Shown here one piece after another: positions 14,528 through 40,700 of a DNA stretch of 48,566 nt. The position numbers were made by a program, and so were the translations under genes. Below the pieces are notes generated by a model. The model did not search any database. It was not told the origin of the DNA and saw only the letters and a list, made by a program, of their open reading frames with translations. Each line of letters opens with the position of its first letter. Position 1 is the stretch's first letter. Source of the stretch: Clostridia bacterium. GTDB taxonomy: Bacteria; Bacillota; Clostridia; UBA1381; UBA9506. The DNA is taken from positions 1 to 48,566 of the forward strand of contig JAFQAZ010000017.1 of the NCBI GenBank assembly GCA_017416855.1, given 5' to 3'.

Positions 14528-14573
14528 AAAGTAGTTATTTTAGTGAGAATTAAACAAAGAGGTGTTCTTAATC

Positions 14574-15518: not shown

Positions 15519-15529
15519 GAGGAAGGGCA

Positions 15530-16414: not shown

Positions 16415-16631
16415 TGTGTATTTACAAAAACGTATCATTGGTAACTGCAAATATTTGAGTGTAAAATGGCAAATTTTTAGGTTTGGGATCAGTTATAGCA
16501 AATGTTATAACTAAAGGATGATAATTAGCTAACGGAGAACAAAACAAATAGTAGAGGGATCAACCCACTACATTATATATAAGGTAATAAACTAGTAAAA
16601 CTATACATTCAAAAAGGAAGGAAGAGTTATT
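16415..16631. other. 217-bp gap between permease and binding-protein genes
   Basis: No gene. Holds a weak promoter match (TTGGTA 16438-16443, 18-bp spacer, TAAAAT 16462-16467) and an inverted repeat AGTTATA/TATAACT (16491-16497 and 16506-16512). The binding protein may therefore have extra transcription of its own, as is common. Confidence 0.35.
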
Positions 16632-20911: not shown

Positions 20912-20923
20912 GGGGTGTTCTAC

Positions 20924-23900
20924 TTGAAAAAAGTACAACATTTTATCGCGCGGCTTGTTTGCTTGGTAATGTTTATTTGTATGGTTATCCCAAGCGGTGT
21001 AGTACTGGCAAATGATGAATATACAATAGCTTTTTTAGGGAACACCACCTTAAAAAATGAGTTAGTTAAACCATATCCTAAACAAATTCAAGGGTATTTC
21101 GAGGGAAGATTAGAAACAACAGTTAATGTCATCAGTGCCAATCCGATTGATTTTGATTCTGATGACTTTATGAATGATTTAGTTGAAAATGTTCTTCCGA
21201 AAAATCCCGATGCTGTCTTTTTAGAACTAGATGTCAGCAAGCATTATGCGGTAACAAATGAGGATTTAACCGCAAGATTAGAATCTATGGTGCTTGCTAT
21301 GCTGGAAACTGAAAAAGTTCCCGCTATTTATCTCATTTATTTCCCTGAAGAAAATATGTGGGATGGTCGTGCACCATTTCAAAAGGTGGCAGAGCGATAT
21401 GAACTGATTGTTTTAGATGCCTTTAGTCACTTTAAGGCGCAAATTGAGTCCGGCAAAATTGTGACCAGAGAAATTTTAACAGCAGGCATTATCCCCGGCG
21501 AAGAAGGGCATGATCGTTTATCCCGCTTTGCTATTAATGAACTGAAAAAGATTAATGATTTATTTAAAAAACCAAATTTTGAGGCAAAGCAAATCACTTC
21601 TAAACGTTACACAACTGTAGTGCAAGAGGTGATTGAAAAAGAAGAACTAAAAACAGACGGGACTGTACTTTATGTTGCACCAAACGGCAGTGACAATGCA
21701 AAAGGCACACTTGAAGCACCGCTTCAGTCTGTTGAAGAAGCCCGGCGTCGTATTCGTGCGGTGAAGCAAAAAGAAATGGAAAACTTCCGCGGGGCAACCG
21801 TGTATTTGCGAGCAGGACTTTATCAGTTCCCCGATGGTCTTAACTTTACAGAGGATGATTCCGGAACGAATACAGCCGGTGTTGTTTATACAGCATACGA
21901 AGGAGAAGAGGTTCGTTTTACAAATGGTTCGCTTATTAAGCCACAAGACTTTAAACCTGTAACAGATCCGAAGGTTTTAAAACGTCTACATTATAAGGGT
22001 GTAGCCAATATTTTAGAATATAACTTAAGAGATGCAGGTATTGAGCCTGGTGAATTTTTAATTCATCCAACCTCTCCCAAGACGGATATTGTGCGTACTA
22101 ACTGTAATACTGGTTCTGAAACAAGACTTGCTTTAGGCAATATTTTCGTTGTGAATGGTAAAGACCAGCAACGTGCTCAGTATCCGAATGGTGGTTGGGA
22201 TGAAGTAGCCGCTCACCAGGATGGTATTGAAAAACACCTTGCCTTCTCCGGCTCCGCACCGGACCGTTGGAACACCAATTCAGGCCAGGCGTTTATTAAA
22301 ATGATTGTTAACCGTGGTTATTGGCATTGGCTTGTTAAGTTTGTAGGAACAGATACCGAGCAGCGCTTCCTTGAAATGGTAGACAGAGGTGATAAGCCTA
22401 CGGTAGGCGGGTATTGGTCCATCATGAACCTGTTAGAAGAACTGGACATCCCTGGTGAATGGTGCGTGGAAGAAAAAACAGGTATGCTGTATTACTACCC
22501 TCGTGAAGGCTTCGAAAATGCAGAATTGCTTTTCTCCAGCAACATTAAACCCATTGTTAAGATGAACAGAACAAAGAATATCACACTGGAGGGTATTACC
22601 ATAGAGGGTGGCTGTTACATTGGTATTAACATTATTGATGGTTATGGCAATACCATTAAAAACTGCACCATCCGTAACATGGGTAACCGCGGTGTAGCCA
22701 TTGACCATAGTGGTAAACCCGGTCCTGGCAATAACGGTGTTGTTGGTTGCCATATTTATAACACAGCTTTATCTGCCGTAACCATTATTGGCGGCGATAA
22801 AAGCGGTTTGACTCATCAGAATGACTATGTGGTAAACAACCACATTGAAAACTTCTGTACCTATGGTAAACACGGTAGTGCCGGCATTTACATTTATAAT
22901 GCCGTAGGTACATATATCCGAAACAACAATATTCACAACAGCACGGCGCCTGCAATCGAAATGGCGGGCAACGACATGTATGTAGAATATAACGAAATGT
23001 ATAATGTCATTCGTGACACGGACGACTCCGGTGTTATGTATGACCAGCATCAGGGTTATGTGGTGCAGGGTAAATATGTTAACCACAACTATTTCCATGA
23101 TGTGTGGCAGTCATTAAGAGCTTTTGCCGTAGGGCACGTTATGGGTTATTATGCTGACTGTACCAGTAGTAGCGGTAGCCGCATTGAAAACAATGTGTTT
23201 GTTAATCTGGGTCTTCCGATACACACCAGTACCGGTAAAAACATAACCATCGCAGAAAATGTCATTATTGATGGTCCTAATGTTGATTCTAGTGGTATAA
23301 GTATAGTAGATGCCCATTGGGGCAATCGAAATCCCGGAGGACGTTATGGAGCAACGAACGACGTTATTTTAGACATGATTAAACAGGCCAATGGTGATTT
23401 TGAAGCCTTGAGAAAACTCGGTAAAGCTCATGTTACAGATCCGTCCGGTGCAGATTTATATTATTATAAACTGGCTTATTTAGATACTAAAGAGTTTACT
23501 GGTGAGAATAGGGATAATTACTTCTTGCAGTATCCTTGGATGGAGCGTTTTGACGATAGCTCGTTGCCTTATAGTGCTGAGGATATTCTCCTGCGTGATA
23601 ATGGCTTGTTCGATTATTTTGATACAAGAGGCCCTGCCATCGAATTACAAGGTCTTTCTCATAAGAAATATAGCGAGGACAACTATGTTAGCGACAAACC
23701 GTTAATGCAGGGTGAAACTGGTTTAGACCGTTTGGCTAAAGTGGATGAAGCTATGCAGATCATGAAAGAAAAATCACCTGATTTTGAGGTTTGGGATGTC
23801 CGTACCACCGGTATTTTAGATGGTCCTAAGCCTGTTGGCAACTTTGATTTGTTATCACCCCGAAACGGCGAAAAAGATGTTGCTACGAAGCGAACCTATT

Positions 23901-25024
23901 TCTTCTGGGATTTTGCATCCGGAGCCGATGAATATCGCATCGAAGTTGCTACCGATGCAGACTTCAAGAATATTGTCCATTCTGAGATTGTGAGAAACAA
24001 CTATGTGACCGTGACTGGTCTTAAAGAAGGCGTTCGCAAATATTATTGGCGTGTAACTGCCATCAGTGAATCTGATAAGTTTTATGGTAATCCTCAGGCA
24101 GGACCCTTCTCCTTTACGACCGAACGTTATATGGAGACAGATAAGGGTGAACTTTCTATTGCGTTGAGTGCCGCTTATAGTGTGCTCGACCAGATTGTTG
24201 AAGGCACTAACCCCGGAGAATATCCTATGGGCACCAGAGCAACCTTAGAGAGCGTGATTGCAGAGGGTGAAGCAATGCGTTCTGCTCAGCGTTCAACAAA
24301 AGAAGATGTTCATACGATAACTGAAAAGATAAACGAAGCTTGGACAAAAGCACGCTGTAGCATTATCATAACAGAAGCTGATGCAGGTACGATTTTTGCA
24401 CAACCTGAAAATATAGTTTTTGTTGGTAAAGGTGATGCAGTTGATGCTGCCACAAATAGTGCAGATGTGGTTTTCGGTGAGAACAAGATAAGTATTTTAG
24501 ATAAGGCGAATGATAGAACCACGGTATTTAGCAAAGCGAAGACTAAACCCTATAACGTTATGCGATTAAAAGGTACCATTAGTTTTGATCAAAATGATGG
24601 TCACTGGGTCATTTTAGGTCTGGGTTGCTATAACCAGCTATATACGCCTTGGAACATGTCTAGTTATGTAATTTTAATTCGCAAAGACGGTATCGAGTTG
24701 CAGGCCTTTAAGCCTCACACCAACAGTGCGGGCTCAATTTATACAGCAGTACCGAATGATTATATTAAAATGGGTGTTCCGCATGACCTTGAGTTTGCGG
24801 CGGTTCCTTGTACAGAAGGTATCAGACTCGTCTTCAGGGTAGATGGAAAAATTATTTTTGATCAGATTGATGATACTTATCCAATGTTTGAACCCGGTCA
24901 CATGATGTTGCACTCCTTAGGACCAACAACAACATTTGATATTGAACCGGCTATGACAGAACAGGAGTATCCCTCCCTGTATGAACTGCTCAGCGACCCT
25001 GAATCCGAACTGAATAAAAAATAA
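20924..25024 (+). CDS. Giant secreted beta-helix protein (GH141-like) with degenerate SGNH and Fn3 domains
   Basis: 1366 residues from a TTG start placed 8 bases after a GGGGG ribosome site. Order by eye: signal peptide (1-29); an SGNH-hydrolase-like domain (about 32-210) in which the usual GDS is GNT and the final block keeps P-x3-GH; a right-handed parallel beta-helix domain (about 247-860) opening with VLYVAPNGSD and containing GGYWSIMNLLEELDIPGEWCVEEKTG, typical of GH141-like glycosidases; a fibronectin-III-like domain (about 970-1067); a short helical module (about 1075-1147); and a C-terminal beta-sandwich (about 1160-1350). GH141 includes alpha-L-fucosidase and xylanase activities. The enzyme probably attacks the target polysaccharide outside the cell. 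It has no SLH domain, so it is released or held by another protein. Confidence 0.75.
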   Translation: MKKVQHFIARLVCLVMFICMVIPSGVVLANDEYTIAFLGNTTLKNELVKPYPKQIQGYFEGRLETTVNVISANPIDFDSDDFMNDLVENVLPKNPDAVFLELDVSKHYAVTNEDLTARLESMVLAMLETEKVPAIYLIYFPEENMWDGRAPFQKVAERYELIVLDAFSHFKAQIESGKIVTREILTAGIIPGEEGHDRLSRFAINELKKINDLFKKPNFEAKQITSKRYTTVVQEVIEKEELKTDGTVLYVAPNGSDNAKGTLEAPLQSVEEARRRIRAVKQKEMENFRGATVYLRAGLYQFPDGLNFTEDDSGTNTAGVVYTAYEGEEVRFTNGSLIKPQDFKPVTDPKVLKRLHYKGVANILEYNLRDAGIEPGEFLIHPTSPKTDIVRTNCNTGSETRLALGNIFVVNGKDQQRAQYPNGGWDEVAAHQDGIEKHLAFSGSAPDRWNTNSGQAFIKMIVNRGYWHWLVKFVGTDTEQRFLEMVDRGDKPTVGGYWSIMNLLEELDIPGEWCVEEKTGMLYYYPREGFENAELLFSSNIKPIVKMNRTKNITLEGITIEGGCYIGINIIDGYGNTIKNCTIRNMGNRGVAIDHSGKPGPGNNGVVGCHIYNTALSAVTIIGGDKSGLTHQNDYVVNNHIENFCTYGKHGSAGIYIYNAVGTYIRNNNIHNSTAPAIEMAGNDMYVEYNEMYNVIRDTDDSGVMYDQHQGYVVQGKYVNHNYFHDVWQSLRAFAVGHVMGYYADCTSSSGSRIENNVFVNLGLPIHTSTGKNITIAENVIIDGPNVDSSGISIVDAHWGNRNPGGRYGATNDVILDMIKQANGDFEALRKLGKAHVTDPSGADLYYYKLAYLDTKEFTGENRDNYFLQYPWMERFDDSSLPYSAEDILLRDNGLFDYFDTRGPAIELQGLSHKKYSEDNYVSDKPLMQGETGLDRLAKVDEAMQIMKEKSPDFEVWDVRTTGILDGPKPVGNFDLLSPRNGEKDVATKRTYFFWDFASGADEYRIEVATDADFKNIVHSEIVRNNYVTVTGLKEGVRKYYWRVTAISESDKFYGNPQAGPFSFTTERYMETDKGELSIALSAAYSVLDQIVEGTNPGEYPMGTRATLESVIAEGEAMRSAQRSTKEDVHTITEKINEAWTKARCSIIITEADAGTIFAQPENIVFVGKGDAVDAATNSADVVFGENKISILDKANDRTTVFSKAKTKPYNVMRLKGTISFDQNDGHWVILGLGCYNQLYTPWNMSSYVILIRKDGIELQAFKPHTNSAGSIYTAVPNDYIKMGVPHDLEFAAVPCTEGIRLVFRVDGKIIFDQIDDTYPMFEPGHMMLHSLGPTTTFDIEPAMTEQEYPSLYELLSDPESELNKK

Positions 25025-25069: not shown

Positions 25070-28000
25070 ATGGCAAACGCAAGTTCAAGAAAAACAAAAC
25101 GCTATATGGCTATCTTACTGGCGGGCATACTCACGGCTATGAGTTTTGCCCCGCCTGTGAGTGCAGAGCCTGAGTTATACACATCCAGTGAAAATTTTGA
25201 GTATAATGGTGGACTTACAGATGGTGGTTCTCCGGTACAAGGCAAAGATGGCGTTTTCTCAAAAATCAGCAATGATGGAAAGGCAACTCTCTATTGGAAA
25301 CATGATGGTAGCAATACGATAAGCGATAGAACGTATTATGACCTTAGATCTGGTCGCTCTGCCAGCATAACGGCAACCTCAGCGAATGGCGGTGCCTTTT
25401 TAGAGTATGAATTTAATGAGCTGTTAACCGGCCAGGTAACGATCAGCTTTCAGGCAACCGGTGGTACCGGTGCAGGAGTTAATCCCCGTTGGCAGATTTT
25501 AGATGACCAGGGCAATGTGATTTTATTTGGCGGTAGTGGAAATAATGCTTTCCTGGGCAGCAATGCAGACATGGAATGTGTGTATTGTGATAACGGCATT
25601 CATCAAAAAGGGCATAACAAATCAGATGGAACTTCATATGAAAAAGACCATATGTCCGGTAACGGTCACAGCTTGACCACTCAAATGGGCTGGTACAAAA
25701 TGCATTTGGATTTTGATAACGGTGTGGCAACATTTGAAGAAAAATTCACAACGAGCGGAGAAGAATGGAAAACCTTTTACGGTTATGCGGCAGATGGCAC
25801 AAAGAGTGACCCTTATGTGATGGCATTGGGTAGCACCCGCGGCGCAAAGAAAATCCGTTTTAATTTTAGCGGTACAGCAGCAACTACTACAGCGTTTGTT
25901 GCAGATACTATAGAGGTTAAGCAGACGGCTTTTGCAACACCGCAGGACGTGTTGACAAAGCGTGCGGCAATTATTTCGGCAGCAAAAACACAGTCTGATC
26001 AGGCTTTGGTCGATGCATTAACGGCAGGAATTGATGCGGTTGACGATAGCTTAGCTGCAACCTTTTCAAACTATAACGCAGACCAAAAAGGGTATGTGGC
26101 AGATTATGTTGAAGCAAATCGCCCCAGCTCCGTTCCTAAAACACCGGCAGATGCTCTTAAAGAGCTTACCGATATTTTAGCTGTTCCTATTGGACGGATT
26201 GAAACCATTATTGGTTTGAATACAAAAACAGAAACTGAATTATTTGAATTTCTTGCAAGTAATGAAGCTACAGTGTTGTTAACTCCGGCATCCCTTGCAG
26301 CGTATAACAACTTAAATACCACCGGTGGAAAGCAGCGCGCAGTAGCAGCTTTGCTTGAAGCAGCTGCGACAAATGAATTTAAAATGCCGGCAGATGTTTC
26401 AGCTGCGTTGTTAACTGCAGTTGGTATTGGTGAAGCATATGAGGAATACATTGCAATTAATGGTGGCCGTATTATCGCTGCTGCCAAAACGCTATCTGAT
26501 GAAGAACTTGTGGCAGCATTAGATGCCGATATGGATGTTGTTAGTCCTGTTTTAGAAGCAACCTATGGTGCTTATAATGATGACCAAAAAGAATATGTGG
26601 CAGATTATGTTGAAGAAAATCGTCCCACAGCCACAGATACAGTAGCGGCTCTTGAAGAACTTGCCAATATTTTAGCTGTTCCTGTTGAACATATAACAAC
26701 CGTGGTTGGTTTACAAGCTAAGACTGATGCTCAAGTGCAGGATTTTCTGGTAAGTGCAGAAGCTGAGGCAATGTTAACTCCAGTATCTCTTGCGGCATAT
26801 AACAATTTAACGATTGTTGAGAAACCCAAAGCGGTTTCGGCATTACTTGCCGTAGCAACAGATTTTAAAGTACCGACAGATGTTTCTGCAGCGTTAATTT
26901 TGGCGGCAAACGCGGCAGCACAACTTGATCCGAATGAAACATATATTGCTCCTGTTCCCACATTTGTTTTAGAGAACGGTGCGAAAAATGTGCATCCTGA
27001 TCAGCCTTTACACATTTCGTTTACTCCCGGTGTTGACTCCAGCAACTTAACTGGTTTTGTCCTCGAAACCCTGTCGGGCACACCGGTAGCTATTACTGCA
27101 AGTGCAAGCTACGATGGTACAGATGTTGTGGTTAAGCCAAACAGTAGCTTAGCAGCAAACACAACCTATATTTTAACGATTCCGGAGGGAACAATTAACA
27201 GTGCAGTAAGCTCTTCCATTAAGGCAAAAGGTGCTGTATTAACCTTTAGCACCGGTGCAAATGATGGTATTTATCAGGAGGAAAACTTTAACCGCTTTAC
27301 TTACGGTAGCACAAACACCTGGGATATTATTAATGGTTTGCAAACAGAAAGCTTTGACGGAAACTCAGCGGCAACCATTATGGGCACAAGTATTACCGAC
27401 CAAACAACTTATGAAGCTGCTGTTAGCGGGGGGGTTCTTGATAACGGCAACGGATTTAATCTGAAGACAAACGGCTCGGTTAGTATGGTACAGACAGCGG
27501 CAGCGGGGGTATATAAAAAATCAAGTTTCGTAATTGATTTTGCTGATGTTAGTTCAGGTCGCTTGCAAATTGGTTTCGATTTGATTTTAGAAAGCAATCC
27601 TTCCCTTGAAAACAGCGATGGATTTATTAAAATTAATAACATGTCATCAATAGGTAGTACTGGCATGTATTATAAATTTTCGCATTCTAAAGACAAAGTG
27701 TTAAATGTTGCTTCTAGCGTTGAAAAGACTTTTGGTGACACACCTATGATTTGGACTCGTGAAGATGGCACAGAAGCTTCTCAGGGTGAAACTCTGTTTA
27801 CTGCCGGGCACTATAAGTTCATGTTAGATATTGATATTGATAATGGTACGGCTGATGTCAATATCGTTAAAACGAAAACAGATGGTTCAGTAATCTATGG
27901 TCACCGTTCAACAACGCCGCGACCGGGCAGTAGCGGAATGGAACCCATTGGTCAAATTGTTTTTGATGTGTTGTGTCAGAATGCCTATGTTAATGAAAAT

Positions 28001-29578
28001 GGCGTTGAATACAATTTCTACACTGAAGCACTTGATGGTGATATGAAACAATATGCCTATGGTTTAGATAATGTGTTTGTCCGTAGTTTTCCTGCTACTG
28101 CTGCACCGAAGGTAGAATATAATGGTGCAACTACTGATGTAGCGCTCACGGCTAATCCGGTGCTGTCCTTTGCAACACCTGTAACCGAAGCTGCTGCCGC
28201 AAAAGCCATTACCGTTACTGATAAACGTGGCAACAAGGTATCGTTTACCGGTAGTATGGATGCAGCTGGCTTGGCTTATACAATTATACCCACTGGCGGA
28301 TTAGTGTATAACAATTCAACTTACACCATCAACTTTGCAGGTTGTAAAGACTGGGCGGGCAAAGCCGTACCTGAGGCAACCTTTACATTTACAACCGTTC
28401 CCGATGCAGGCTATGAAGGTCGAAGAACAACACTTATGAATGCAGCAGTGAATGAAAGCGGAACTGCTTTGATAAGCGCTATTGATACAGCTATCAGCGA
28501 TGTGAACGACAAAGCTAGCATGAGTTATGAAAACTATAACGGTGAACAAAAGAAATATGTAGCAGGTTATGTAGAAGCAAACCGTCCTGCAGATGGTGAT
28601 TTTGCAAGTCTTGGCACAACATTAGGTGAGGTTGTGGATGCACTGGATGCAGTCGAAGCGTTAAGCACGGCTGACCGTGCTGGAATGAGCGACCTTTTGG
28701 CAACACCTGAAAAACGTGCCGCCATGATGCTTTCTGCTGAGGCGTCAAATGCATACAACGCATTAGACCAAACGCAAAAGGATAACACAATCATTGCACT
28801 GGCACCGCTTGTTCCCGGCGTTATAACTCCAGAACAGGCATCTAGTGCACTTCTGAGTGCTATTGCTACGGCTACAGCACCTCAACCTGTTATTACACCG
28901 TCTACCAACCATACAGGCATTGTTTCAGGCGGTGGTGGCAATTGGGGTAGTGTGAATGTTCAGGTTACGGATAAGGTTCTTGCTGAAAACACCAACACAG
29001 CATTGCCACAAGGTAATAATGCATTTAATGATTTAGGCACAGTTTCCTGGGCGCGCAATGCCATTAATATTTTAGCGTCTCATGGCATTATTAGCGGTCG
29101 AGGTGACGGATCCTTTGGTCCGAGCGATTCTGTTACTCGTGAAGAATTCTTAAAAATGGCATTGCAAGCTTTTGAGGTTTACACCATTTCAGAAGGTACA
29201 TTGCCCTTTAAAGATGTGTCAATGGATAGTTGGTATTACCCCGTTGTTTCTCTTGCTTATGAAACCGGAATTGTCGGTGGCGTGAGCAGTGATGCCTTTG
29301 GTGTTGGTGCCCCTATCACCAGACAGGATATGGCATTAATTTTAAGCAGGGTTTTAAATTATCAGTTCATTGAATTAAAAGCCGATACTGAAATAGAACC
29401 TTTTACAGATAGTGATTCCTTTAGCACTAACGAGGCTAAAGAGGCTATTGATACTCTGGCAAAAGGCGGCATTATAAACGGTCGCGAAGATGGATCCTTT
29501 GACCCCATAGGCACAGCAACCCGTGCCGAAGCGGCTGCCGTTATTTACCGCGTGTTATATCGCGTTGGTTTATTATAA
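25070..29578 (+). CDS. Giant modular surface protein with Cys/His sandwich domain, Ig-like domains and three SLH repeats
   Basis: 1502 residues. Signal peptide (1-32); a beta-sandwich-like module (about 36-288) carrying C170-x2-C173-x4-H178-x3-H182 plus H194; two copies of a helical repeat of about 155 residues (298-456 and 466-617) marked by YNxDQKxYVADYVExNRP; an SbsA-type Ig-like domain with KNVHPDQPLHI (about 628-729); an EENFN-type beta module (about 734-1005); a second Ig-like domain (about 1010-1105); a third helical repeat (about 1108-1265); a Gly-rich linker; and three SLH repeats (about 1300-1502) for wall attachment. No catalytic motif is recognised, so glycan binding and display are likelier than hydrolysis. 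It shares modules with the proteins at 29627 and 33164. Confidence 0.75.
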   Translation: MANASSRKTKRYMAILLAGILTAMSFAPPVSAEPELYTSSENFEYNGGLTDGGSPVQGKDGVFSKISNDGKATLYWKHDGSNTISDRTYYDLRSGRSASITATSANGGAFLEYEFNELLTGQVTISFQATGGTGAGVNPRWQILDDQGNVILFGGSGNNAFLGSNADMECVYCDNGIHQKGHNKSDGTSYEKDHMSGNGHSLTTQMGWYKMHLDFDNGVATFEEKFTTSGEEWKTFYGYAADGTKSDPYVMALGSTRGAKKIRFNFSGTAATTTAFVADTIEVKQTAFATPQDVLTKRAAIISAAKTQSDQALVDALTAGIDAVDDSLAATFSNYNADQKGYVADYVEANRPSSVPKTPADALKELTDILAVPIGRIETIIGLNTKTETELFEFLASNEATVLLTPASLAAYNNLNTTGGKQRAVAALLEAAATNEFKMPADVSAALLTAVGIGEAYEEYIAINGGRIIAAAKTLSDEELVAALDADMDVVSPVLEATYGAYNDDQKEYVADYVEENRPTATDTVAALEELANILAVPVEHITTVVGLQAKTDAQVQDFLVSAEAEAMLTPVSLAAYNNLTIVEKPKAVSALLAVATDFKVPTDVSAALILAANAAAQLDPNETYIAPVPTFVLENGAKNVHPDQPLHISFTPGVDSSNLTGFVLETLSGTPVAITASASYDGTDVVVKPNSSLAANTTYILTIPEGTINSAVSSSIKAKGAVLTFSTGANDGIYQEENFNRFTYGSTNTWDIINGLQTESFDGNSAATIMGTSITDQTTYEAAVSGGVLDNGNGFNLKTNGSVSMVQTAAAGVYKKSSFVIDFADVSSGRLQIGFDLILESNPSLENSDGFIKINNMSSIGSTGMYYKFSHSKDKVLNVASSVEKTFGDTPMIWTREDGTEASQGETLFTAGHYKFMLDIDIDNGTADVNIVKTKTDGSVIYGHRSTTPRPGSSGMEPIGQIVFDVLCQNAYVNENGVEYNFYTEALDGDMKQYAYGLDNVFVRSFPATAAPKVEYNGATTDVALTANPVLSFATPVTEAAAAKAITVTDKRGNKVSFTGSMDAAGLAYTIIPTGGLVYNNSTYTINFAGCKDWAGKAVPEATFTFTTVPDAGYEGRRTTLMNAAVNESGTALISAIDTAISDVNDKASMSYENYNGEQKKYVAGYVEANRPADGDFASLGTTLGEVVDALDAVEALSTADRAGMSDLLATPEKRAAMMLSAEASNAYNALDQTQKDNTIIALAPLVPGVITPEQASSALLSAIATATAPQPVITPSTNHTGIVSGGGGNWGSVNVQVTDKVLAENTNTALPQGNNAFNDLGTVSWARNAINILASHGIISGRGDGSFGPSDSVTREEFLKMALQAFEVYTISEGTLPFKDVSMDSWYYPVVSLAYETGIVGGVSSDAFGVGAPITRQDMALILSRVLNYQFIELKADTEIEPFTDSDSFSTNEAKEAIDTLAKGGIINGREDGSFDPIGTATRAEAAAVIYRVLYRVGLL

Positions 29579-29626
29579 AAAGTGTAAACTTATTAAACAA
29601 AAAAATTATAGGCAGGAGGATGAACA

Positions 29627-32600
29627 ATGGAAACAATGAAGAAACAGGCAAAAAAGTATTTGGCAGCCCTTTTGGCATGCCTTATGCTGCTCTCACTGGT
29701 TACTGTGGTAGGGGCCACAGAACCGGGGGAAATGATACTCTACACATCCAGTGAAGACTTTGAGTATGGGACACGACTTGCAAGTGATGCTGTAGCAGTA
29801 GAAGGCAGAGAAGGGGTAGTTGCAAGAACCAGCAAAGACGGCAAGGCTACTATTTACATTAAGCATGATGCTGGCGGTGCCTTTGTACAAGACACCCTAT
29901 ATAATGACCTTGGGTCCGGTAACTGTGCGACTTTGCCTAATGCCACAGCAAACGGCGGTGCCTTTTTGGAGTATGATTTTAATGAGCTGATAACCGGTCA
30001 GGTAACCATCAGCTTCCAGGCAACCGGTGGTTCCGGTGCTGGCGTGAACCCCCGTTGGGAGATTTTAGATGATGTGGGTAACGTAGTTATACTTGGCGGT
30101 GTTGGAAACAATGCTAACTTAGGCAGCGATAACAATATGGAATGTGTTGGCTGTGCAAACGGTACACACACAAAAGGTCATATACATGAAGACGGAAGAG
30201 TGATGTCAAGTGACCATATGACCGGTAATGGCTATGTTGTTAGTTCGACTATGGGCTGGTATAAAATGCATTTAAATTTTGATGCCGGCACAGCAACCTT
30301 TGAACAAAAAGCAGATGGCGTATGGAAAACATATTACGGTTGGTCGGCTGATGCCACCAAGAGCGACCCCTATGTTATGGCTTTGGGCAGCACCCGCGGC
30401 GCAAAGACAATTCGCTTTAATTTTAGCGGTACAGCAGCAGCATCACAGTTTGTTGCCGATTCTATTGAAGTTAACCAGACTGCATTCGGCCAGTTAAAAG
30501 CCGGTTTTGATGTGGAAAATGGCGGTATGCTTGCCCTGGGTGAGCCTTTAAAGGTTAACTTTAACTACCCAATGGATTCAAGCACCTTAGAGGGTAACAT
30601 TACCCTGATGAAAAATGGTGCACCTGTTAGTGTTACTTTTGAACCCTCTGCCACCGGCGTAACTGTTATACCGGCGGGCGGTTTAACGGCTGGTAACTAC
30701 ACCTTAACCGTTGGCACAGGCGTACAAGCAACAGGCAATGTTAATCCTTTAAATACAGAAGCTACAGTAACCTTTAATGTTGCGTTAAAAGCGCCCGAAT
30801 GCTTTACATCAGTAGAAAATTTCAATTCACAACCTAACACTGCAACTCTTAGTGGCGATTATTATGTGATGGATGGCGGTAATGGCACTGCTAAGATTAA
30901 GATGAAAAAGGATGCGACTGCTACCGCATTGACCGACACTTATTCCGTTTCTACCGGTTGGACTGGGGAAGAAAGCGGTTTAAAGGCTAAAACAAGTGCA
31001 AACGGCGGTGCTCACATGATTTATGAGCTTAACCAGGCACTTACCGGTAAGGTAACCCTCAGCTTTATTTGTTATGGCGGAATACCGCTTAACGCCTATT
31101 CACCTAATAAAAACCAAGGACCTCGTTGGGAATTGTTAGATGATCAGGGCAATGCCATTTTAGTGGGGGCTACCGATGGTAGCGCAAATGTGGGTTCTAC
31201 TACAGCTATGGCATGCGTAACCGAAAACTGCAAAGGTCATTATCACACTGACGGTAGACCCATGACAGCAACACACATGTATGGCAACGGTCTTACCTAT
31301 GTAAACGGTCGGTACAAAATGCATTTAGACTTCGACAAAGGTACAGTTACTTTTGAATACTACGATACTACTAATAAGGTGTGGTTACCTTATTACGGCT
31401 GGAGTGCTGCCGCTGCATCCAGCGATATTTACACCATGTCCTTAGGCGATGCCAAGAATTTAAAAGCATTAAAGTTTAATTATAACTCTAGTGATGGCGC
31501 TCGTTATTGGGTGGATGCAATTGATATCGCACAAACACAACACGGCAGCCTGCAAGCAAGCTTTAATGTTCCGGCAACCGATGTGCACCCCGACCAGCCG
31601 CTGCACATTAACTTTAACCATGCAGCAGATGTCAATGCGCTGAAAAACAGCGGTGCCATCACGCTGACAAAGCAGGGTGAAAGCACCCCGACAGCGATTA
31701 CCATTCTGCCTTCAGGTGACGGTACAGATGTTGTGGTTAAACCCAACGCTTCTTTAACACCGGGTGCAACCTATACCTTGGCTGTTGCCGGTGGCACGAT
31801 CCCCTCAACCGAGGCAGGGATTTACCCCGTAGCAACTGCTGCCAGCACCACCTTTACCGTTGGTGCCAATGTGGGCTATTACGTTGAAGAAAACTATAAT
31901 CAGCTTACAGAGGCTACAAACGTTGATAACTCTGCACAATTGCTAATGACTCGCGATGGCAATGCAATTCTTATAGGCGGCGGCACAGCAATAACTAATC
32001 AGAGCCAAATTGATGGTATTAGTGATACGGAATTGAATGCAACTTCCGGTGCATTTTTAACAGAAGATGGCCGTTTGCGGATTAACAGAGCAGATGCATC
32101 AACCCTTGATTATTTTGTTGGCATTCCCCGCGTGAGTCAGGGCAACCTGAAAGTTAGCTTCGATGTAGAGCTTACTAAGGCATATGGCAATAGTGACAAT
32201 TATTTCTTCCTTAAAAACCGAGCAACCTATGGTGGTGATACTGCAAAGTATTTCAGACTTGGTAATGCTGGTAGCACTGGAATGTATGGCTCTGTTCCGA
32301 CGGATGCGACTAAGGATTACTTAGTTTGGGGTGATCCGATTACCACATTTGGTCATGGTGTTGAAACAGCGGTAAACCACAAGACCATGCAACCCGGCAA
32401 GTATAATGTTGTCTTTGATTGTAATTTAGATGCCGGCACAGCTGTAGTTACTGTTAAGAGCACACGTAGCGATGGCATTTGGACCGGTAGTGTTGAAAAC
32501 GTTGGACCTATCGTTTACCATGTATCTTGCCCGGCAGTTCAACAAATTGGTTTCTCAATTCCCAGTGGCGGAGAAACATATATAGATAACATTGCTATGC

Positions 32601-32995
32601 GTTACACTCCACCGGCAGACGGCTTAATGCGTGTAACCGATTTGAAGGCATATAAGACAGCTGATGCAAATAAAGCAGCTATCACATCCATCAAAGCCCT
32701 TGATGAGATTACCATTTCTGGATATTTGACTAACGATGTGAGAGATGATGTAAATGTAGAGTTCTATGCTGCAATCTATAGCAATGATGATAAGCTTTTG
32801 AAGGTCTTCTCAGGTGATGCTGTTGAAGTAAAGACCTCTATGAACGTATCCTCTTGGTCTGGTGCAACGAAGAACGTTAAAGTAGATCTTACCGTTCCAG
32901 CAGACACTCCCGAAGGCTCTTATATTAAGACCTTTGCTTGGACAACAGACCTGCAGCCTGCGACAGAAATTTTAAATCCTATTCCTAAGGCGTAA
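29627..32995 (+). CDS. Secreted modular protein with two Cys/His sandwich domains
   Basis: 1122 residues. Signal peptide (1-30). The first sandwich-like module (about 36-290) is close to that of the 25070 protein, with C173-x2-C176-x4-H181-x3-H185-x-H187 and H197. An Ig-like domain follows, then a second, diverged sandwich module (from about residue 390) with a C-x4-C-x2-H-x-H variant, an SbsA-like Ig domain with DVHPDQPLHI, an EENYN-type module, and a C-terminal Ig-like domain of about 110 residues related to the ends of the 33164 and 37778 proteins. There is no SLH repeat or LPXTG motif. Probably an extracellular glycan-binding protein; no hydrolytic residues recognised. Followed by two hairpins. 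Confidence 0.7.
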   Translation: METMKKQAKKYLAALLACLMLLSLVTVVGATEPGEMILYTSSEDFEYGTRLASDAVAVEGREGVVARTSKDGKATIYIKHDAGGAFVQDTLYNDLGSGNCATLPNATANGGAFLEYDFNELITGQVTISFQATGGSGAGVNPRWEILDDVGNVVILGGVGNNANLGSDNNMECVGCANGTHTKGHIHEDGRVMSSDHMTGNGYVVSSTMGWYKMHLNFDAGTATFEQKADGVWKTYYGWSADATKSDPYVMALGSTRGAKTIRFNFSGTAAASQFVADSIEVNQTAFGQLKAGFDVENGGMLALGEPLKVNFNYPMDSSTLEGNITLMKNGAPVSVTFEPSATGVTVIPAGGLTAGNYTLTVGTGVQATGNVNPLNTEATVTFNVALKAPECFTSVENFNSQPNTATLSGDYYVMDGGNGTAKIKMKKDATATALTDTYSVSTGWTGEESGLKAKTSANGGAHMIYELNQALTGKVTLSFICYGGIPLNAYSPNKNQGPRWELLDDQGNAILVGATDGSANVGSTTAMACVTENCKGHYHTDGRPMTATHMYGNGLTYVNGRYKMHLDFDKGTVTFEYYDTTNKVWLPYYGWSAAAASSDIYTMSLGDAKNLKALKFNYNSSDGARYWVDAIDIAQTQHGSLQASFNVPATDVHPDQPLHINFNHAADVNALKNSGAITLTKQGESTPTAITILPSGDGTDVVVKPNASLTPGATYTLAVAGGTIPSTEAGIYPVATAASTTFTVGANVGYYVEENYNQLTEATNVDNSAQLLMTRDGNAILIGGGTAITNQSQIDGISDTELNATSGAFLTEDGRLRINRADASTLDYFVGIPRVSQGNLKVSFDVELTKAYGNSDNYFFLKNRATYGGDTAKYFRLGNAGSTGMYGSVPTDATKDYLVWGDPITTFGHGVETAVNHKTMQPGKYNVVFDCNLDAGTAVVTVKSTRSDGIWTGSVENVGPIVYHVSCPAVQQIGFSIPSGGETYIDNIAMRYTPPADGLMRVTDLKAYKTADANKAAITSIKALDEITISGYLTNDVRDDVNVEFYAAIYSNDDKLLKVFSGDAVEVKTSMNVSSWSGATKNVKVDLTVPADTPEGSYIKTFAWTTDLQPATEILNPIPKA

Positions 32996-33009
32996 TAATT
33001 TTATAAAAT

Positions 33010-33041
33010 GTGTCCGGGACGGCAAAAACCGCCCCGGACAC
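33010..33041 (+). terminator. GC-rich hairpin after the second modular protein
   Basis: GTGTCCGGGACGG (33010-33022) pairs with CCGCCCCGGACAC (33029-33041), one mismatch, loop CAAAAA. It is GC-rich against an AT-rich background, which favours a terminator despite the lack of an immediate U-tract. Confidence 0.6.
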
Positions 33042-33054
33042 CTATCTATGGCAA

Positions 33055-33093
33055 ATCATGGACAGCAGTAACTTTTTGTCTGCTGTCTATGAT
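33055..33093 (+). terminator. Second hairpin in the same gap
   Basis: ATCATGGACAGCAG (33055-33068) pairs with CTGCTGTCTATGAT (33080-33093) with one non-Watson-Crick position and an 11-base loop. Together with the hairpin at 33010 it suggests that transcription is reduced or ended here, with the following genes expressed separately. Confidence 0.5.
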
Positions 33094-33163
33094 TGGCTAT
33101 ATATAGATTTATTTTAAATGAAAATAATTAAAAAATGTAAAAAACTGATTTCGGAGGTAACCT

Positions 33164-36100
33164 ATGGCTAACACAATAATTAAAAAAACAAAAAGATATT
33201 TGGCCTTATTCTTGGCTAGCCTACTTTTGTCAGCGACCTTTATCCCACAGGTAATTGCTGCAAGCAATGTAGCGACAGGGAGAACACTCTATGTATCAAG
33301 TGATAATTTTGAATATAACGGAAGTCTTGTAATTGGTGGCACACAAGCAGAAGGAAGAGAGGAAGGGGTTTTTACAAAACCCAGCAAAGACGGTAAGGCT
33401 ACACTTTACTGGAAACACGATGCCGGAGGAAGCAGAATAACGGACAAGTTAGGGGTTATTAATTATAATGATAGAGCAGCTTATATAGAGGCGACGACTG
33501 CAAACGGCGGTGCCTTTCTGGAGTATGATTTTAATGAGCTGATAACCGGCCAGGTGACCATTAGCTTTCAGGCAACCGGTGGTACCGGTGCAAGCGTTAA
33601 CCCTCGTTGGCAGGTATTAGATGACCAAAACAATGTAGTTATGTTCGGTGGTGTTGGGAATAATGCCAACTTGGGCAGCAATGCAGAAATGGAATGTGTT
33701 GGTTGCGCAAATGGTACACACTTAAAAGGTCATAATAAAACAGATGGAACCTCATATAAAAAGGATCATATGTCTGGTAACGGCCACAGCCTTTATCCGC
33801 AAATGGGCTGGTATAAAATGCATTTAGATTTTGATAATGGCATAGCCACTTTTGAAGAAAAGTTTACAACGAGCGGAGCAGAATGGAAAACATTTTACGG
33901 TTATGCGGCTGATGCTACACTGAGCGACCCCTATGTTATGGCCTTAGGAAGCACCCGTGGTGCAAAGAAAATTCGCTTTAATTTTAGCGGTAGTAGCGCG
34001 CCAACATCGGCATTTATCGTGGATTCCATTGAAATTGAGCAAACTGCGTTTGGTATCGACAGAGAGTTAATAGCGAAGCAGGAGGTTATGATTACGGCAG
34101 CTAAAACACTTTCCGGCGATCTGTTGGTGGCAGCTTTAGATACGGGGATTGATGCAGTTAGCTTTGAATTGGCAACAGCCTATAGCGAATATAATCCAGA
34201 ACAAAAGGCTTATGTGGCAGACTATGTAGCTAATCATAGACCGACTGCAGAAGAGCTTGAAGAAGCATTAAATCAACTGTGCACAACACTTGATACGGTT
34301 ATGGAAAAGCTTAATGCCGTTAACACAGTGAAAAATGGTGGCGACACTGAGCTTAGAAGTTTTATAAATAACTACGGCAGTCTTTTAGAGGCAGATGTAT
34401 TAGATAGTTATAATAATCTGTCACAATCTCAAAAAGATAGTGTCATTACTATGTTATCTGTTATGACGCGCGGTTTTTATTTACCGCAAGATATTTCCAT
34501 TGCGCTGGATTATGTAGTGAATAGGGTACTGAATCCCACGCCGGAAGGAACAGTAATTCATCCTGTTCCCACATTTTCTGTTGTTAACGGAGCCAAAAAT
34601 GTACATCCTGACCAGCCACTACATATCACTTTTAATTGTCCAATGAAATCAAGTGATATGGGAAGTATTGTTTTAACAAGGGGAGTAGGAGAGCTGATAG
34701 CAACTAAAACAGAAGTGAGTATTGATGGCAGTGATGTTGTTATAATTCCCTTAAAAAGCTTAGAGCCATACACTACATACACACTTTCTGTACCACCACA
34801 TTCCATTCGTGGTTTTAATGAAACATTGGGGACAGCTGTATCTGGCGCAGTGACCTTTACCACTGGCGCACAAGAAGGATATTTTGTTGAAGAGAACTAT
34901 AACAATCTTTCCGCAGGTGCAACTATGCTGGATGTGATTACAGAAACAAATTATAGTGCAGCCACCAAGGTGCGTTTGGATGATGGAGATTTTGACATTA
35001 ATTCTGTCTCATCCTGGAACAATGCAAATGCAGCTGGACAGTTTGAAAACGGAGCAGGTTTATATCTGCGCAATGACGGCAGAGTTGACCTGATTGAAGC
35101 AAATCCTAAAGCCAGCACGGCAAACTCTGGAAATATGTATTATATTCTGGATATTGATGATGTTAGCACCGGTGGTATTCATATAGAATTTGATATGGAA
35201 CTATTGGATACACAGGTAGGTAGTGTAGATTATTTCTTTGGAATAAATAATGGAGCAACCTATGGTGCCAATGGCAATTACTGGCAATTAGGCTTCCAGA
35301 ACGGTGTGCTGAAAGCATATTCAAACGGAGAGAGTTTGACAAATGGTGCATTAACCTGGACAAATGAAGCCGGAGAAGCAGTTTCTGAAAATGTGGCAGG
35401 TAAACTGGTTGCCGGTAAATATCATATTAGTTTTTATGCTGATATGAACACCAATATTGGTACCTTTGTTGTACAAAAGGAAACAGACGATGGTATTTTG
35501 ATTGGTAAACGCACCACGGCAGCACGTGTTCCTACCACAAATTTTGAAGCATGCAGTTTTTTAGTATTTAAAGCTACTTATCAGACAGATGGTAGTCTGT
35601 ATAACTTTACTGACAACGAAGGCAACAAAAAAAGCCGTTTTATTTTAGATAACATCAGCACACATCATACCCCCTCTGCTGTAGTCGCATCAGCGATACT
35701 TACAAGCAGCGGCACAGGTGTTGGACTGTATGATAATCAAACTATTCGTTTTTCAACTGCTATGACAGAAGCTGGTCTTTCCGGTGCAATTACATTAAGA
35801 GATCCCTATGGAAAAACCATTCCTTTCAGCGGTATCTTAAGTGAGGATGGGTTAACTTATACGGTGATTCCATCTGAAGCGTTTCTTTATGCAGATGCTA
35901 CTTACAACATCACAATAGATGGTGCAGTGAATTGGGCAGGGCAAATTATGACAACTCAAACCTTGTCCTTTAGCACGGTAACACAGGCTCAAATGGTGGA
36001 ATGTTCTATCAAAAAGAATGCTAAAGATGTTCATCCTGACAGTCAGATTGTTCTGCAATTTGGTGCTGCAATGAACACTGAAAATATGAATGCAATCACC

Positions 36101-37753
36101 TTAAAACGGCAAAATGGATGGGAAGAACCATTCTCTCTACAGATGAGTCATGACGGTAGTGATGTTGTGCTTGTTCCAGAGAAAGGACTTAAACCTTTAA
36201 CCAGCTATATCATTACGATACCCGGTGATAAAATTGCCACAAAGGCTGATGGAACAATTAAAACGGTTGATACGGTTATTACCTTTACAACCGGTCGTGA
36301 TGAAGGGTTTTATTTAGAAGAGAATTATAATCAACATAATCTGTCCAGCAACGTTTGGGAAATTATAGAGGGTACTCGCTATACTTATTGGGGCGACAGT
36401 ATGCTGAATATGGATAGCGGAACCTATGTTAGCTCTGCAAGCAGTTATGAAACAGCAAAACTAAACGGTCAGTTTGATGAGGGGGCCGGTTTATATATGC
36501 GCGAGGATGGCGCCATAGACTTTATCGAAGCCTCTGTGGGTCAAGGCAGCAGATATGGTGAATCTGTTTATAAACTGGATTTCCAAGATGTGGAGAACGG
36601 TCGCTTGCAAGTAGAATTTGATTTAGAGATGCCTGGTGATCAAAATGATACACAAAATGTTCTATTCAGCATCAGCAATAAATCCAGTATGAGTGATAGT
36701 GGTGCTTATTGGTGGCTGGGATTTGAAAATGGTATTTTACATGCAAACGGTAGAGGAGAGAGTAGTAGCGGTGTGTTAAACTGGACAAAGGCAGATGGTA
36801 CAACAGCCGCAAGTTCGACAGGGAAACTGACTCAAGGTCGTTATCACATTCGTTTAGATGCAAATTTAGATACAGGTATTGGCGAGTTCACCATCATCAA
36901 AAATACTACAGATGGACAGTTTATCGGCAAACGAACCACAGCTCCTATTACCAAAATGGATGGTTTTGAAGCATGTGATTCTATAATTTTTAAAAGTGCT
37001 ATAGGGAAAACTGTTTGGGGTACGGTTTCGTTGTACAATTGCACAGATGCCTCAGGCAAAAGAATTAACAAATATATTTTAGATAACATTCGCACACGGT
37101 ATAGTGCCAATCCCGATGCTTTTGTGAAGACTGAAAATCAACTGATAGAAGCAGACGGCACACCGGTAATCACCTTTAACACGCCAATGACAGAGGCGGG
37201 ACTTTCCGGTAAGGTTTTATTAAAGGATGCAGGTGGTGCAGTGGTTGACTTTACGGGTGTTTTAAGTGATGATGGGTATTCATATACGCTGGTGCCTGAG
37301 GAAAGCTTGGCAGGCAATACAACCTATACCCTTACTGTTAGTTCGACAGTTGATTGGGAAGGCAAGGCGATGAACGAAAAAACGCTTTCCTTTACAACGC
37401 AAGATGCACCTCAGGTCACCATGACAAAACTTAAGTTATATGCTAAGGTTGCAGATAGAGAACAAAGTATTACAGAGATAATTGCCGGCGAAAAGGTTAT
37501 TGCTTCGGCGATATTTACAAACAGTAGTGAGGTCGATGTAGTTGATGGCATTTTATACATTGGTGTATATAATGTTGCTGGCAAATTACTTAAAGTTGCT
37601 GTAGAAAAAATAGACATCCCTGCCGGTGATGCAATACAGGTGCAAACAACCTTTGTTGTGCCGGAGGATATTGGTAACGATGGCTATGTTAAAGTTTGTG
37701 CATGGGGTGAAACAGGCAGACAACTTTGCGACGAAAGAGAATGGCCTTATTAA
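33164..37753 (+). CDS. Giant secreted modular protein with Cys/His sandwich domain and repeated Ig/EENYN modules
   Basis: 1529 residues. Signal peptide (1-32). The sandwich-like module (about 40-290) carries C178-x2-C181-x4-H186-x3-H190 and H202 and matches the 25070 module along its length. Then come one helical repeat (about 293-450, with YNPEQKAYVADYV), an SbsA-like Ig domain (KNVHPDQPLHI), an EENYN module, an Ig-like domain, another Ig-like domain (KDVHPDSQIVL), a second EENYN module, another Ig-like domain and the C-terminal Ig-like domain ending in CAWGETGRQ. No SLH or sortase signal. Most likely a long extracellular binding protein. It begins with the same MAN...KKTKRY start as the 25070 protein, so the genes arose by duplication. 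Confidence 0.7.
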   Translation: MANTIIKKTKRYLALFLASLLLSATFIPQVIAASNVATGRTLYVSSDNFEYNGSLVIGGTQAEGREEGVFTKPSKDGKATLYWKHDAGGSRITDKLGVINYNDRAAYIEATTANGGAFLEYDFNELITGQVTISFQATGGTGASVNPRWQVLDDQNNVVMFGGVGNNANLGSNAEMECVGCANGTHLKGHNKTDGTSYKKDHMSGNGHSLYPQMGWYKMHLDFDNGIATFEEKFTTSGAEWKTFYGYAADATLSDPYVMALGSTRGAKKIRFNFSGSSAPTSAFIVDSIEIEQTAFGIDRELIAKQEVMITAAKTLSGDLLVAALDTGIDAVSFELATAYSEYNPEQKAYVADYVANHRPTAEELEEALNQLCTTLDTVMEKLNAVNTVKNGGDTELRSFINNYGSLLEADVLDSYNNLSQSQKDSVITMLSVMTRGFYLPQDISIALDYVVNRVLNPTPEGTVIHPVPTFSVVNGAKNVHPDQPLHITFNCPMKSSDMGSIVLTRGVGELIATKTEVSIDGSDVVIIPLKSLEPYTTYTLSVPPHSIRGFNETLGTAVSGAVTFTTGAQEGYFVEENYNNLSAGATMLDVITETNYSAATKVRLDDGDFDINSVSSWNNANAAGQFENGAGLYLRNDGRVDLIEANPKASTANSGNMYYILDIDDVSTGGIHIEFDMELLDTQVGSVDYFFGINNGATYGANGNYWQLGFQNGVLKAYSNGESLTNGALTWTNEAGEAVSENVAGKLVAGKYHISFYADMNTNIGTFVVQKETDDGILIGKRTTAARVPTTNFEACSFLVFKATYQTDGSLYNFTDNEGNKKSRFILDNISTHHTPSAVVASAILTSSGTGVGLYDNQTIRFSTAMTEAGLSGAITLRDPYGKTIPFSGILSEDGLTYTVIPSEAFLYADATYNITIDGAVNWAGQIMTTQTLSFSTVTQAQMVECSIKKNAKDVHPDSQIVLQFGAAMNTENMNAITLKRQNGWEEPFSLQMSHDGSDVVLVPEKGLKPLTSYIITIPGDKIATKADGTIKTVDTVITFTTGRDEGFYLEENYNQHNLSSNVWEIIEGTRYTYWGDSMLNMDSGTYVSSASSYETAKLNGQFDEGAGLYMREDGAIDFIEASVGQGSRYGESVYKLDFQDVENGRLQVEFDLEMPGDQNDTQNVLFSISNKSSMSDSGAYWWLGFENGILHANGRGESSSGVLNWTKADGTTAASSTGKLTQGRYHIRLDANLDTGIGEFTIIKNTTDGQFIGKRTTAPITKMDGFEACDSIIFKSAIGKTVWGTVSLYNCTDASGKRINKYILDNIRTRYSANPDAFVKTENQLIEADGTPVITFNTPMTEAGLSGKVLLKDAGGAVVDFTGVLSDDGYSYTLVPEESLAGNTTYTLTVSSTVDWEGKAMNEKTLSFTTQDAPQVTMTKLKLYAKVADREQSITEIIAGEKVIASAIFTNSSEVDVVDGILYIGVYNVAGKLLKVAVEKIDIPAGDAIQVQTTFVVPEDIGNDGYVKVCAWGETGRQLCDEREWPY

Positions 37754-37777: not shown

Positions 37778-40700
37778 ATGAAAGTCATTCAAAATAAACT
37801 AAAGCAAGTGCTTTCTTTGTGTCTGGTTGCTTGTTTGTGCATTGGGCTCATGCCGTTAGTAGCTTTTGCCAGCGGCACAACCTATTATGTGTCACCAAAC
37901 GGAACAGATGCTGGCGGTACGACAGAAGCTACCGCTTTTAAAACGCTGACAGCAGCCTATAACGCTATGGTAAGTGGAGATACTTGTATTATTTTACCCG
38001 GTGTGTATCATGAAGAGCTTAACATCAACGGAAAAAATAATCTGACATTTGCGGCACAAACACCTGGAACTGTTACCATTACCGGTGGTGATGAAGTGAC
38101 CGGTTGGGTTAAGGATACTATGGAAAATGTCTGGGTTGCCAATGTTGGTGCTGGTATTTATAATGGTGATGGTAATATTGTATTCCAAAATGGCGAACTT
38201 TGTCAGGAAGCTCGCTGGCCTGATTTGACTCAGGAGGATGCTGATGGAGCGCATAAACTGTTAAACCTTGATAACTATGCTCGTGTAGAGCAACAGGGAA
38301 CAGCAGTGCCTACGATTACAGACAAAGATTTAGCAGAACTTAATAATCTTAATTTAACCGGTGCTTATGTTTGGACTGTGAGCGGCGCAGCATATTGGAG
38401 TTATGTTGCCAAAATTATGTCACATGATAAAACAAATCATATTTTAACTCTTGAAGATGTATTTGGCAGCACTGGTTACTGGCCAAGAGGAAATACGCAA
38501 GGTTGGCCTGAAAATATTTATTATATTTTTGACCATAAGGGGTTGCTCAGTTGCGAGGGAGAATGGTATAGCGAAGAACCGGTAGAGGGAAGTGCAACCG
38601 GCAAATTGTATATGTATCATGCAGGCAATGATGCACCTCAGGATGTTGAACTGCGTAGCCGTGAGTATACTATCCGTGTTCAAAATGCGCAGAACATAAC
38701 CTTAGAGGGTTTGCATGTGCGGAGTGGTTTGGTAAGTTTTAGCGATACAACTAGCAGATGTACTATCAAAGATATGAAATTAGAAACATTGGACTATCGT
38801 ATGCCCCGTGCTTTAAATAGTCTTTACGATGGAAAATTACATCGTCCCAGTGCCCGTGGTGCCATTATCAATGGCAATAACCATTTAGTGGTTGGGTGTG
38901 AGTTTTTCAACCTTTATGGTGAAGGCATCAACCTTTTAGGCGATGAAAGCCGTGTGTTAAATAACTATTTTCATGATTTTAACATGGAAGCTACTTATGC
39001 AGACGGTGTACAGATGTTAGATGATAAAACCCTGGAAATGAATGGTGTTGATTGGAATAATGCTAACATAGTAGAAAATAATACACAAAGCGTTAACTGT
39101 TATGGAAAAAAACATTTAATTAGTCATAATACGTTTAAGTATTTTGGCCGTAGTGCTATTGGCGGAACCTTTACAAAAGCAGTTATTTCTTATAACGATT
39201 TATCAGATGGTAATCGTCTCACTCGTGACGGTTCTTTATTTTACATTGTTAATGCTGATTTTGGTGGTTCAGAGTTTCATCATAATGTATTAGGTGAAAG
39301 CATTAACGGCGAGGGTATGCAATTAGGACTTTATTTAGATGGTTTTACCACTGGTATGGTGGTTTACAAAAATCTTGTATATGGTCAGGAATCCGAAGGG
39401 AATGTTTTTTCACGAAGTATGACGATGAATCATCATGCTCTAGGCAATGTGATTGTTAATAATACTATTGTCAACAAGTCAGGAATCAGCATTATGACGG
39501 CAGACCACGCTCACACAGTGTTTATGAACAACTTATTCCAGAATAAGTTGGTGCCGCAAGGTGAATATGTGGGGGTAGATTTCCACAACAATGTAGAAAA
39601 CTTTTCTAATTGGACTAATGCCGAACAAAATGATTATAGCTTAGCTTCAAATGCCGAAGAGGCCATTAATAAGGGGGTGGAAATCCCCGGGGTGACCGAT
39701 GGTTTTGTGGGAGATAGACCAGACTTGGGTGCATTTGAATATGGAGCAGAGAAGTGGAAAGCAGGTCACGAGTTTAGTAATGCTACTTATGAGTCAGAAA
39801 TCTGGCAACTGAACACTGCTATTCCCTATGTGAATATTTTGGGAAATAGCGGTTTTGAAAAGTATAGCAAGTCCGGTGGTATCTTTACGATCGAAGGATG
39901 GGAAAGTACTAGCTCAGTTACACCGGTTACACATGATGCATGGGGTACTGTGGCTCGATATGCTAAAGAGGGTAGGAATGTGTTAAAACTGCCAGCTAAT
40001 GCTTCGATTACAAAAACTATAACTGGCCTTGCTCCCAACACAGCCTATGAAGTTGGTGCCTATGCTATGGTAGCGGGCAAAAAATTAGGCCGCACGGAGG
40101 CTGATGAGAATGCTCCAGGTACATCTGTTTCTGGGTTTCCGTTGCTCACAGAAACCGTTAATAGCCTGAATGGCTTTACACAAGATGCGCAGGAACATTG
40201 GATTTGTTATGATTCTTTAGATTTCGGTTCTGTTGGCTATAAAGATTTGTCTATGGAGTTGAGCTACGGTGCCAATGCCGCGAAAACAACCCGTACTATA
40301 GAAATCTATGTAGCAGAAGAATCTGCATCAAATTCTATACAAAATGGTGCACCATCAGGTGCAACAAAAGTTGCAAGTTATGACATTAAAAACAATCCAA
40401 GATGGATTTCAGTGCCGTTTGACTCTGTTATTACAGGTAATAAAAAAGTTTATATTGCCTTTAAAGGGGATTTTTATGATGTGTCTTTTATCAAAGACTA
40501 TCAATTCTTTTACAATCGTGATAGCGGTGAATATGTAGCCTTAACAGCTGAAAGCGATTCTGGCGAACATGCAGAGGTTCGTTTTAATGGTTCTTATATG
40601 CCCAGCACCATCCAAAACCTAACGATTACCACAGGAGATGCCGGTACTGTTACGGTTAAAGTTTCTAAAAACGGTGGCGGATTGTATGGTTTTGTTGATC

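Follow-up and report, generated by a model that had tools for sequence, protein, structure and literature searches.

The window analysed here (the whole of a 48,566-nucleotide stretch of contig JAFQAZ010000017.1, from a Clostridia bacterium, assembly GCA_017416855.1) contains three open reading frames (ORFs 25070, 29627 and 33164) for large proteins that share a module with a Cys/His-rich loop. Four copies of this Cys/His module can be aligned over about 255 residues:

25178..25936, plus strand: Cys/His jelly-roll module of ORF 25070 (residues 37-289), placed by alignment; AlphaFold2 model with a predicted template modelling score (pTM) of 0.70
29738..30505, plus strand: first copy in ORF 29627, placed by alignment; shares 64-65% identity with the close copies of ORFs 25070 and 33164
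30800..31573, plus strand: diverged second copy in ORF 29627, placed by alignment; 39-42% identical to the others
33284..34066, plus strand: module of ORF 33164, placed by alignment; 75% identical to the ORF 25070 copy

The loops that carry the Cys and His residues lie within these modules as follows:

25577..25651, plus strand: ORF 25070 loop, C170-x2-C173-x4-H178-x3-H182-x11-H194-M (C170-H182 at nucleotides 25577-25615, H194 at 25649-25651)
30143..30217, plus strand: ORF 29627 first-copy loop, C173, C176, H181, H185 and H197 (nucleotides 30143-30181; H197 at 30215-30217)
31214..31276, plus strand: ORF 29627 second-copy variant loop, C530-x4-C535-x2-H538-x-H540-x9-H550-M (nucleotides 31214-31246; H550 at 31274-31276)
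33695..33769, plus strand: ORF 33164 loop, C178, C181, H186, H190 and H202 (nucleotides 33695-33733; H202 at 33767-33769)

An earlier note on this DNA had reported a Cys/His cluster at the same place in the three proteins, followed by a further HM at a constant distance, and a diverged fourth copy in ORF 29627 reading C-x4-C-x2-H-x-H. All of this is exact to the residue: the clusters span C170-H182, C173-H185 and C178-H190, the His of HM stands 12 residues beyond the last motif His in 3/3 proteins, and the fourth copy has C530/C535/H538/H540, then H550-M. The pattern common to ORFs 25070, 29627 and 33164 is C-x2-C-x4-H-x3-H-x11-H-M at an equivalent position in the module, and the motif occupies homologous columns in all four aligned modules. 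One short loop holds four Cys/His ligand candidates (C-x2-C-x4-H-x3-H in three copies, the variant in the fourth).

How much weight can such a motif bear? The bare DNA pattern has 12 matches in the 2.37 Mb genome (1 for a reversed control), and since just 3 of the 12 are in these modules the pattern in itself is not strong evidence. Agreement among the three closest copies is weak evidence too because, at 64-75% identity, they are young duplicates; given the identity of the loop, the probability of finding all five Cys/His unchanged is about 0.02, and a Fisher test for enrichment of Cys and His gives p = 0.07 at best. The conservation statistics inside the window (p 0.02-0.07 at best) are thus only suggestive. 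That the motif sits at homologous columns of homologous modules is not chance. Cys makes up 0.27-0.89% of these proteins versus 1-4% for the majority of cytosolic proteins encoded in the window, and in the modules of ORFs 25070 and 33164 both loop Cys are the sole Cys present.

No credible match, including the named-family match expected of concanavalin A-like members, was obtained when the module was searched against Pfam, NCBIfam and PDB sequences, so that at sequence level the absence of a named family is upheld. The PDB sequences gave profile matches to PPAR-gamma, uL10 and others, but these, at E about 0.1-1, were noise. The AlphaFold2 model, built from the four-copy alignment, is a nearly all-beta jelly roll (pTM 0.70, mean predicted local distance difference test [pLDDT] score 60.6), and its nearest solved fold is 5mqr (the 413-614 domain of BT_1020, matched over residues 416-614; VIA-align Z 14.1, root-mean-square deviation 2.8, 166 residues aligned). 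Further neighbors at Z 10-13 are GH131, a trans-sialidase lectin domain, alginate lyases (including PL14), GH16 and others; Z exceeds 10 for 50 entries, by description lectins, lectin domains and jelly-roll enzymes. The predicted structure therefore has the jelly-roll sandwich of the concanavalin A-like lectin/glucanase fold, in agreement with the beta-sandwich proposed before. On this model the fold is of a known kind, and the Cys/His decoration is found in no family tested. The Cys/His segment forms one long inter-strand loop, running from strand 114-118 to strand 170-178 of the model.

There are no other copies of the Cys/His module elsewhere in this genome. One other genome was found to have it, that of a member of the same family but another genus (G076), which was reached via a neighboring gene, that of the GH141-like beta-helix protein at 20915. 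The syntenic locus in G076 encodes two proteins (1074 and 661 residues), each with two modules that are 15-22% identical to the window modules. A local profile search (hmmsearch) gave E 1.2e-7 for the 1074-residue protein; the 661-residue protein alone was not significant against the window profile, and its modules share 47-56% identity with the pair in the larger protein. Profile-profile comparison of window and G076 modules gave an hhalign E of 3.5e-5 (a single comparison) and a probability of 72. No further credible match to the window-module profile turned up in the order (95 genomes), the class (391) or the phylum (398); the G076-module profile found no credible member elsewhere, and with the joint profile neither the family nor 21 additional genomes of the order yielded one. 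Matches in G003 (E 0.004) and G041 (E 0.23) are partial, and weak ones in five other genomes (G015, G120, G374, G449 and G188) were rejected as short, partial and lying in unrelated repeat or other proteins or in a stop-containing stretch, with no CxxC loop. Matches of a few G076 modules to DUF7576 (E 0.05-0.09) and DUF6287 fell below the cut-off and were not used. A tblastn search of plasmids gave nothing, and scans of genome and viral contigs with exact short peptide patterns, which miss diverged relatives, gave no relative.

A CxxC lies in the same inter-strand loop in 4/4 G076 modules. When Cys was masked as X before alignment, the window and G076 CxxC fell in the same loop, 1-3 columns apart, in 3/3 alignment modes; with Cys and His both masked they were 1-3 columns apart in 2/3 modes and in the same loop in the third, giving the same loop in 6/6 runs and a separation of 1-3 columns in 5/6. 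Two more features are invariant in the G076 modules: about 53 residues further along there is a G-H-x3-H, and a third Cys follows the second CxxC Cys at a distance of 68-69 residues (in the 661-residue protein the only module Cys are C-x2-C and one more, 69 residues on). Three Cys per module is an odd number, and so fits a mixed Cys/His metal site better than disulfides. Because the four G076 modules are paralogous, their agreement should be weighed as one or two events rather than four. A CxxC in the loop of such distantly related modules is stronger evidence than the conservation inside the window.

The modules sit among genes with a bearing on glycans. Other features of the locus, with a second type of jelly-roll module found downstream in the same three proteins, are:

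14562..18071, plus strand: ABC permeases and lipoprotein (DUF3502), syntenic; 67%, 69% and 60% identical to G076 proteins
20915..25024, plus strand: secreted GH141-like beta-helix protein, the syntenic anchor (Beta_helix match; GH141_M below cut-off); 45% identical to G076 over 1373 residues
27269..28087, plus strand: module of the second type, a jelly roll that lacks the Cys/His loop, ORF 25070, by alignment; family AlphaFold2 pTM 0.78, nearest fold 5mqr
29024..29557, plus strand: C-terminal cell-wall anchor of ORF 25070, made up of three SLH domains, Pfam SLH 2.8e-36, best at residues 1319-1360; outer limits approximate
31877..32608, plus strand: second-type module, ORF 29627, by alignment
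34880..35671, plus strand: second-type module, ORF 33164, first row of the alignment and the sequence modelled by AlphaFold2
36308..37105, plus strand: second-type module, ORF 33164, by alignment
37778..41434, plus strand: large secreted protein, beta-helix-like by eye with a weak CBM_4_9 match, syntenic; 38% identical to a G076 protein

The second module type, also in four copies, lacks the Cys/His loop. It gave the better model, with 5mqr again the best structural match (Z 17.1), and it aligns globally to the first type, an ordinary strand-and-loop segment replacing the Cys/His loop (a weak alignment, hhalign probability 47). Big_5 matches occur in all three host proteins and SLH in that of ORF 25070 alone. 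Because ORFs 29627 and 33164 lack SLH and have only signal-peptide-like N-termini (by eye), their surface location is presumptive; the earlier description of three surface proteins is thus backed by SLH anchors in one and is less direct for the other two. ORFs 29627, 33164 and 37778 and proteins on L044, L045, L047 and L048 have in common a C-terminal domain, about 100 residues long, whose end lies near [KE]-x-[FYC]-[AL]-W; it is shared by the non-SLH secreted sandwich proteins and the 37778-type proteins of three related loci, and may act as a tag for docking or sorting at the cell surface.

The locus also holds GH3, GH29, BNR sialidase-like and DHDPS-family aldolase genes and SLH proteins, of which one is 38% identical to its G076 counterpart. 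A third version of the locus, on contig 15 of G076, encodes sandwich proteins without CxxC. Across the three versions (14562-41434, L044/L045 and L047/L048) the lipoprotein, SLH and beta-helix core is kept and the sandwich proteins have diverged almost beyond recognition; the latter may set glycan specificity. Since the locus has an ABC sugar importer, beta-helix enzymes, and GH3, GH29 and sialidase-like genes, the modules likely hold a glycan at the cell surface. Carbohydrate binding by the module is plausible from its predicted fold and gene neighborhood, and is the most likely function because the modules are tandem, repeated and lectin-like in fold, have no evident shared catalytic acid pair, and lie in such a locus. 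Rhamnogalacturonan II came up as a target through BT_1020 as best fold and the GH141-like, GH29 and DHDPS aldolase genes; it is left as a lead, because fold similarity does not show substrate, and different glycosidases occur in the G076 locus. There are two DHDPS-like genes, at 11532-12329 (by eye, from the same motifs) and 44628-45500 (Pfam), which suggests that a keto-deoxy sugar acid is broken down, for example sialic acid, KDO or DHA. Directly after each comes one of two Cys/His-rich paralogs (12329-13273 and 45528-46487; C-x3-C and C-x2-C) that are 64% identical to each other, match no Pfam family and have relatives 63-66% identical in G082, G066 and G002.

What, then, does the loop do? 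We consider it an even bet that the module is a secreted, glycan-binding jelly roll of an SLH-linked surface system, in which the loop Cys and His form a structural metal site, probably for zinc. The concanavalin A-like module of about 255 residues would have this site in its inter-strand loop, with two ligands from the CxxC. In the window modules the remaining ligands would be the His of H-x3-H and of HM in the same loop; in the sister genus they would probably come from other loops, supplied by the third Cys and by G-H-x3-H. The bound ion, most likely Zn2+, would pin a loop of roughly 45 residues, whose place in the second module type is taken by an ordinary segment, and so shape a recognition surface on the lectin-like fold, with the modules keeping a complex glycan close to the cell as neighboring enzymes cut it. 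We further propose, more tentatively, an undescribed family of exported lectin-fold modules with an extracellular Cys/His metal site in which the anchoring CxxC is kept and the other ligands have moved between loops by genus.

Several observations weigh against these proposals. The module is so far known from two genomes, and each module alignment has just four related rows. Relative to the standard set, the fourth window copy lacks one Cys and one His but has acquired others. No H-x3-H adjoins the CxxC in G076, so that the homologs do not keep all four ligands of a CCHH finger but the CxxC alone. Of the putative CCHH metal knuckle originally proposed, the distant homologs thus share the CxxC and not the adjacent H-x3-H, and CCHH is better seen as one local form of a Cys/His site that varies more widely than as a family signature; the rest of that interpretation, a sandwich module of no named family, is supported. 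The loop has pLDDT mostly below 50 (model residues 128-145 and 155-168), hence ligand geometry cannot be read from the model, and no glycan-binding residues were identified in the modules.

The CxxC might instead form a structural or redox disulfide, with the nearby His incidental and the loop conserved only through recent duplication. Exported proteins can form disulfides, the invariance of five residues among such close copies is, as an event of about 2%, not striking, and one module has C-x4-C in place of C-x2-C. The three conserved Cys and invariant H-x3-H of each G076 module tell against this explanation, as does the depletion of Cys in these proteins, which would fit a host not relying on disulfides, and we think it unlikely. 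The combination of CxxC, invariant G-H-x3-H and third Cys in G076 favors a genuine Cys/His metal site, anchored on CxxC and with its other ligands exchanged, rather than a disulfide or coincidence.

A metal site need not be structural, nor serve glycan recognition. The module could be a lyase or glycosidase of the concanavalin-like superfamily with a catalytic Cys-bound zinc, given the GH131, GH16, PL14 and other alginate lyase enzymes among its fold neighbors, the three invariant Cys in G076, and the precedent of the GH127/GH146 (clan GH-P) cysteine glycosidases, whose Cys3-Glu zinc active site is established (PMC10850190). That site, however, lies in an (alpha/alpha)6 catalytic barrel and not in a jelly roll (PMC10850190), which makes catalytic zinc less likely here; the invariants of the eight modules are one Cys, two Asp and mostly Gly, hydrophobic and aromatic residues, with no evident catalytic acid pair, and tandem repetition is typical of binding modules. 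We judge this distinctly improbable. Least probable of all, and very much so, is that the loop captures or senses metal at the surface. Cys/His-rich loops on exported proteins would suit such a role, and the glycan role comes from the neighbors only, but what is conserved in the three versions of the locus is a sugar-type importer with glycan enzymes, and no metal transporter was present among the genes examined.

If the structural site is real, it would mean that a common sandwich fold can grow a metal-pinned recognition loop, and, with ligands arranged in two ways around one CxxC, small purified modules would allow a direct test of how a metal site turns over during evolution. To our knowledge Cys-containing metal sites have rarely been described on exported carbohydrate-binding folds, and a literature search of partial coverage for zinc sites in such sandwiches found nothing close.

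Among known systems, the module most resembles the concanavalin A-like jelly rolls (the BT_1020 5mqr domain, the trypanosomal trans-sialidase lectin domain and legume lectins), with which it shares the predicted fold over nearly its whole length and an association with glycan-degrading systems; it differs in having no sequence match to them and in the long Cys/His loop between two strands. Legume lectins bind Ca and Mn through Asp and His. Like GH127/GH146, which have Cys-bound zinc, the module would belong to glycan-directed proteins, but its Cys and His are in a sandwich loop without a barrel; it is predicted nearly all-beta and has no Pfam match to such families. The retroviral-type zinc knuckle (CCHC) and intracellular CCHH fingers likewise have a close Cys pair followed by His in a short loop, whereas the ligand set of C-x2-C-x4-H-x3-H is not that of CCHC, the setting here is an exported sandwich, and the part kept in homologs is CxxC alone. 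Although large sandwich proteins without recognized enzyme domains fill a good part of this locus, and no named family covers their modules, it resembles the SLH-anchored polysaccharide utilization loci of Gram-positive bacteria in its ABC importer and lipoprotein, its secreted multi-domain proteins, its SLH domains and its glycosidases.

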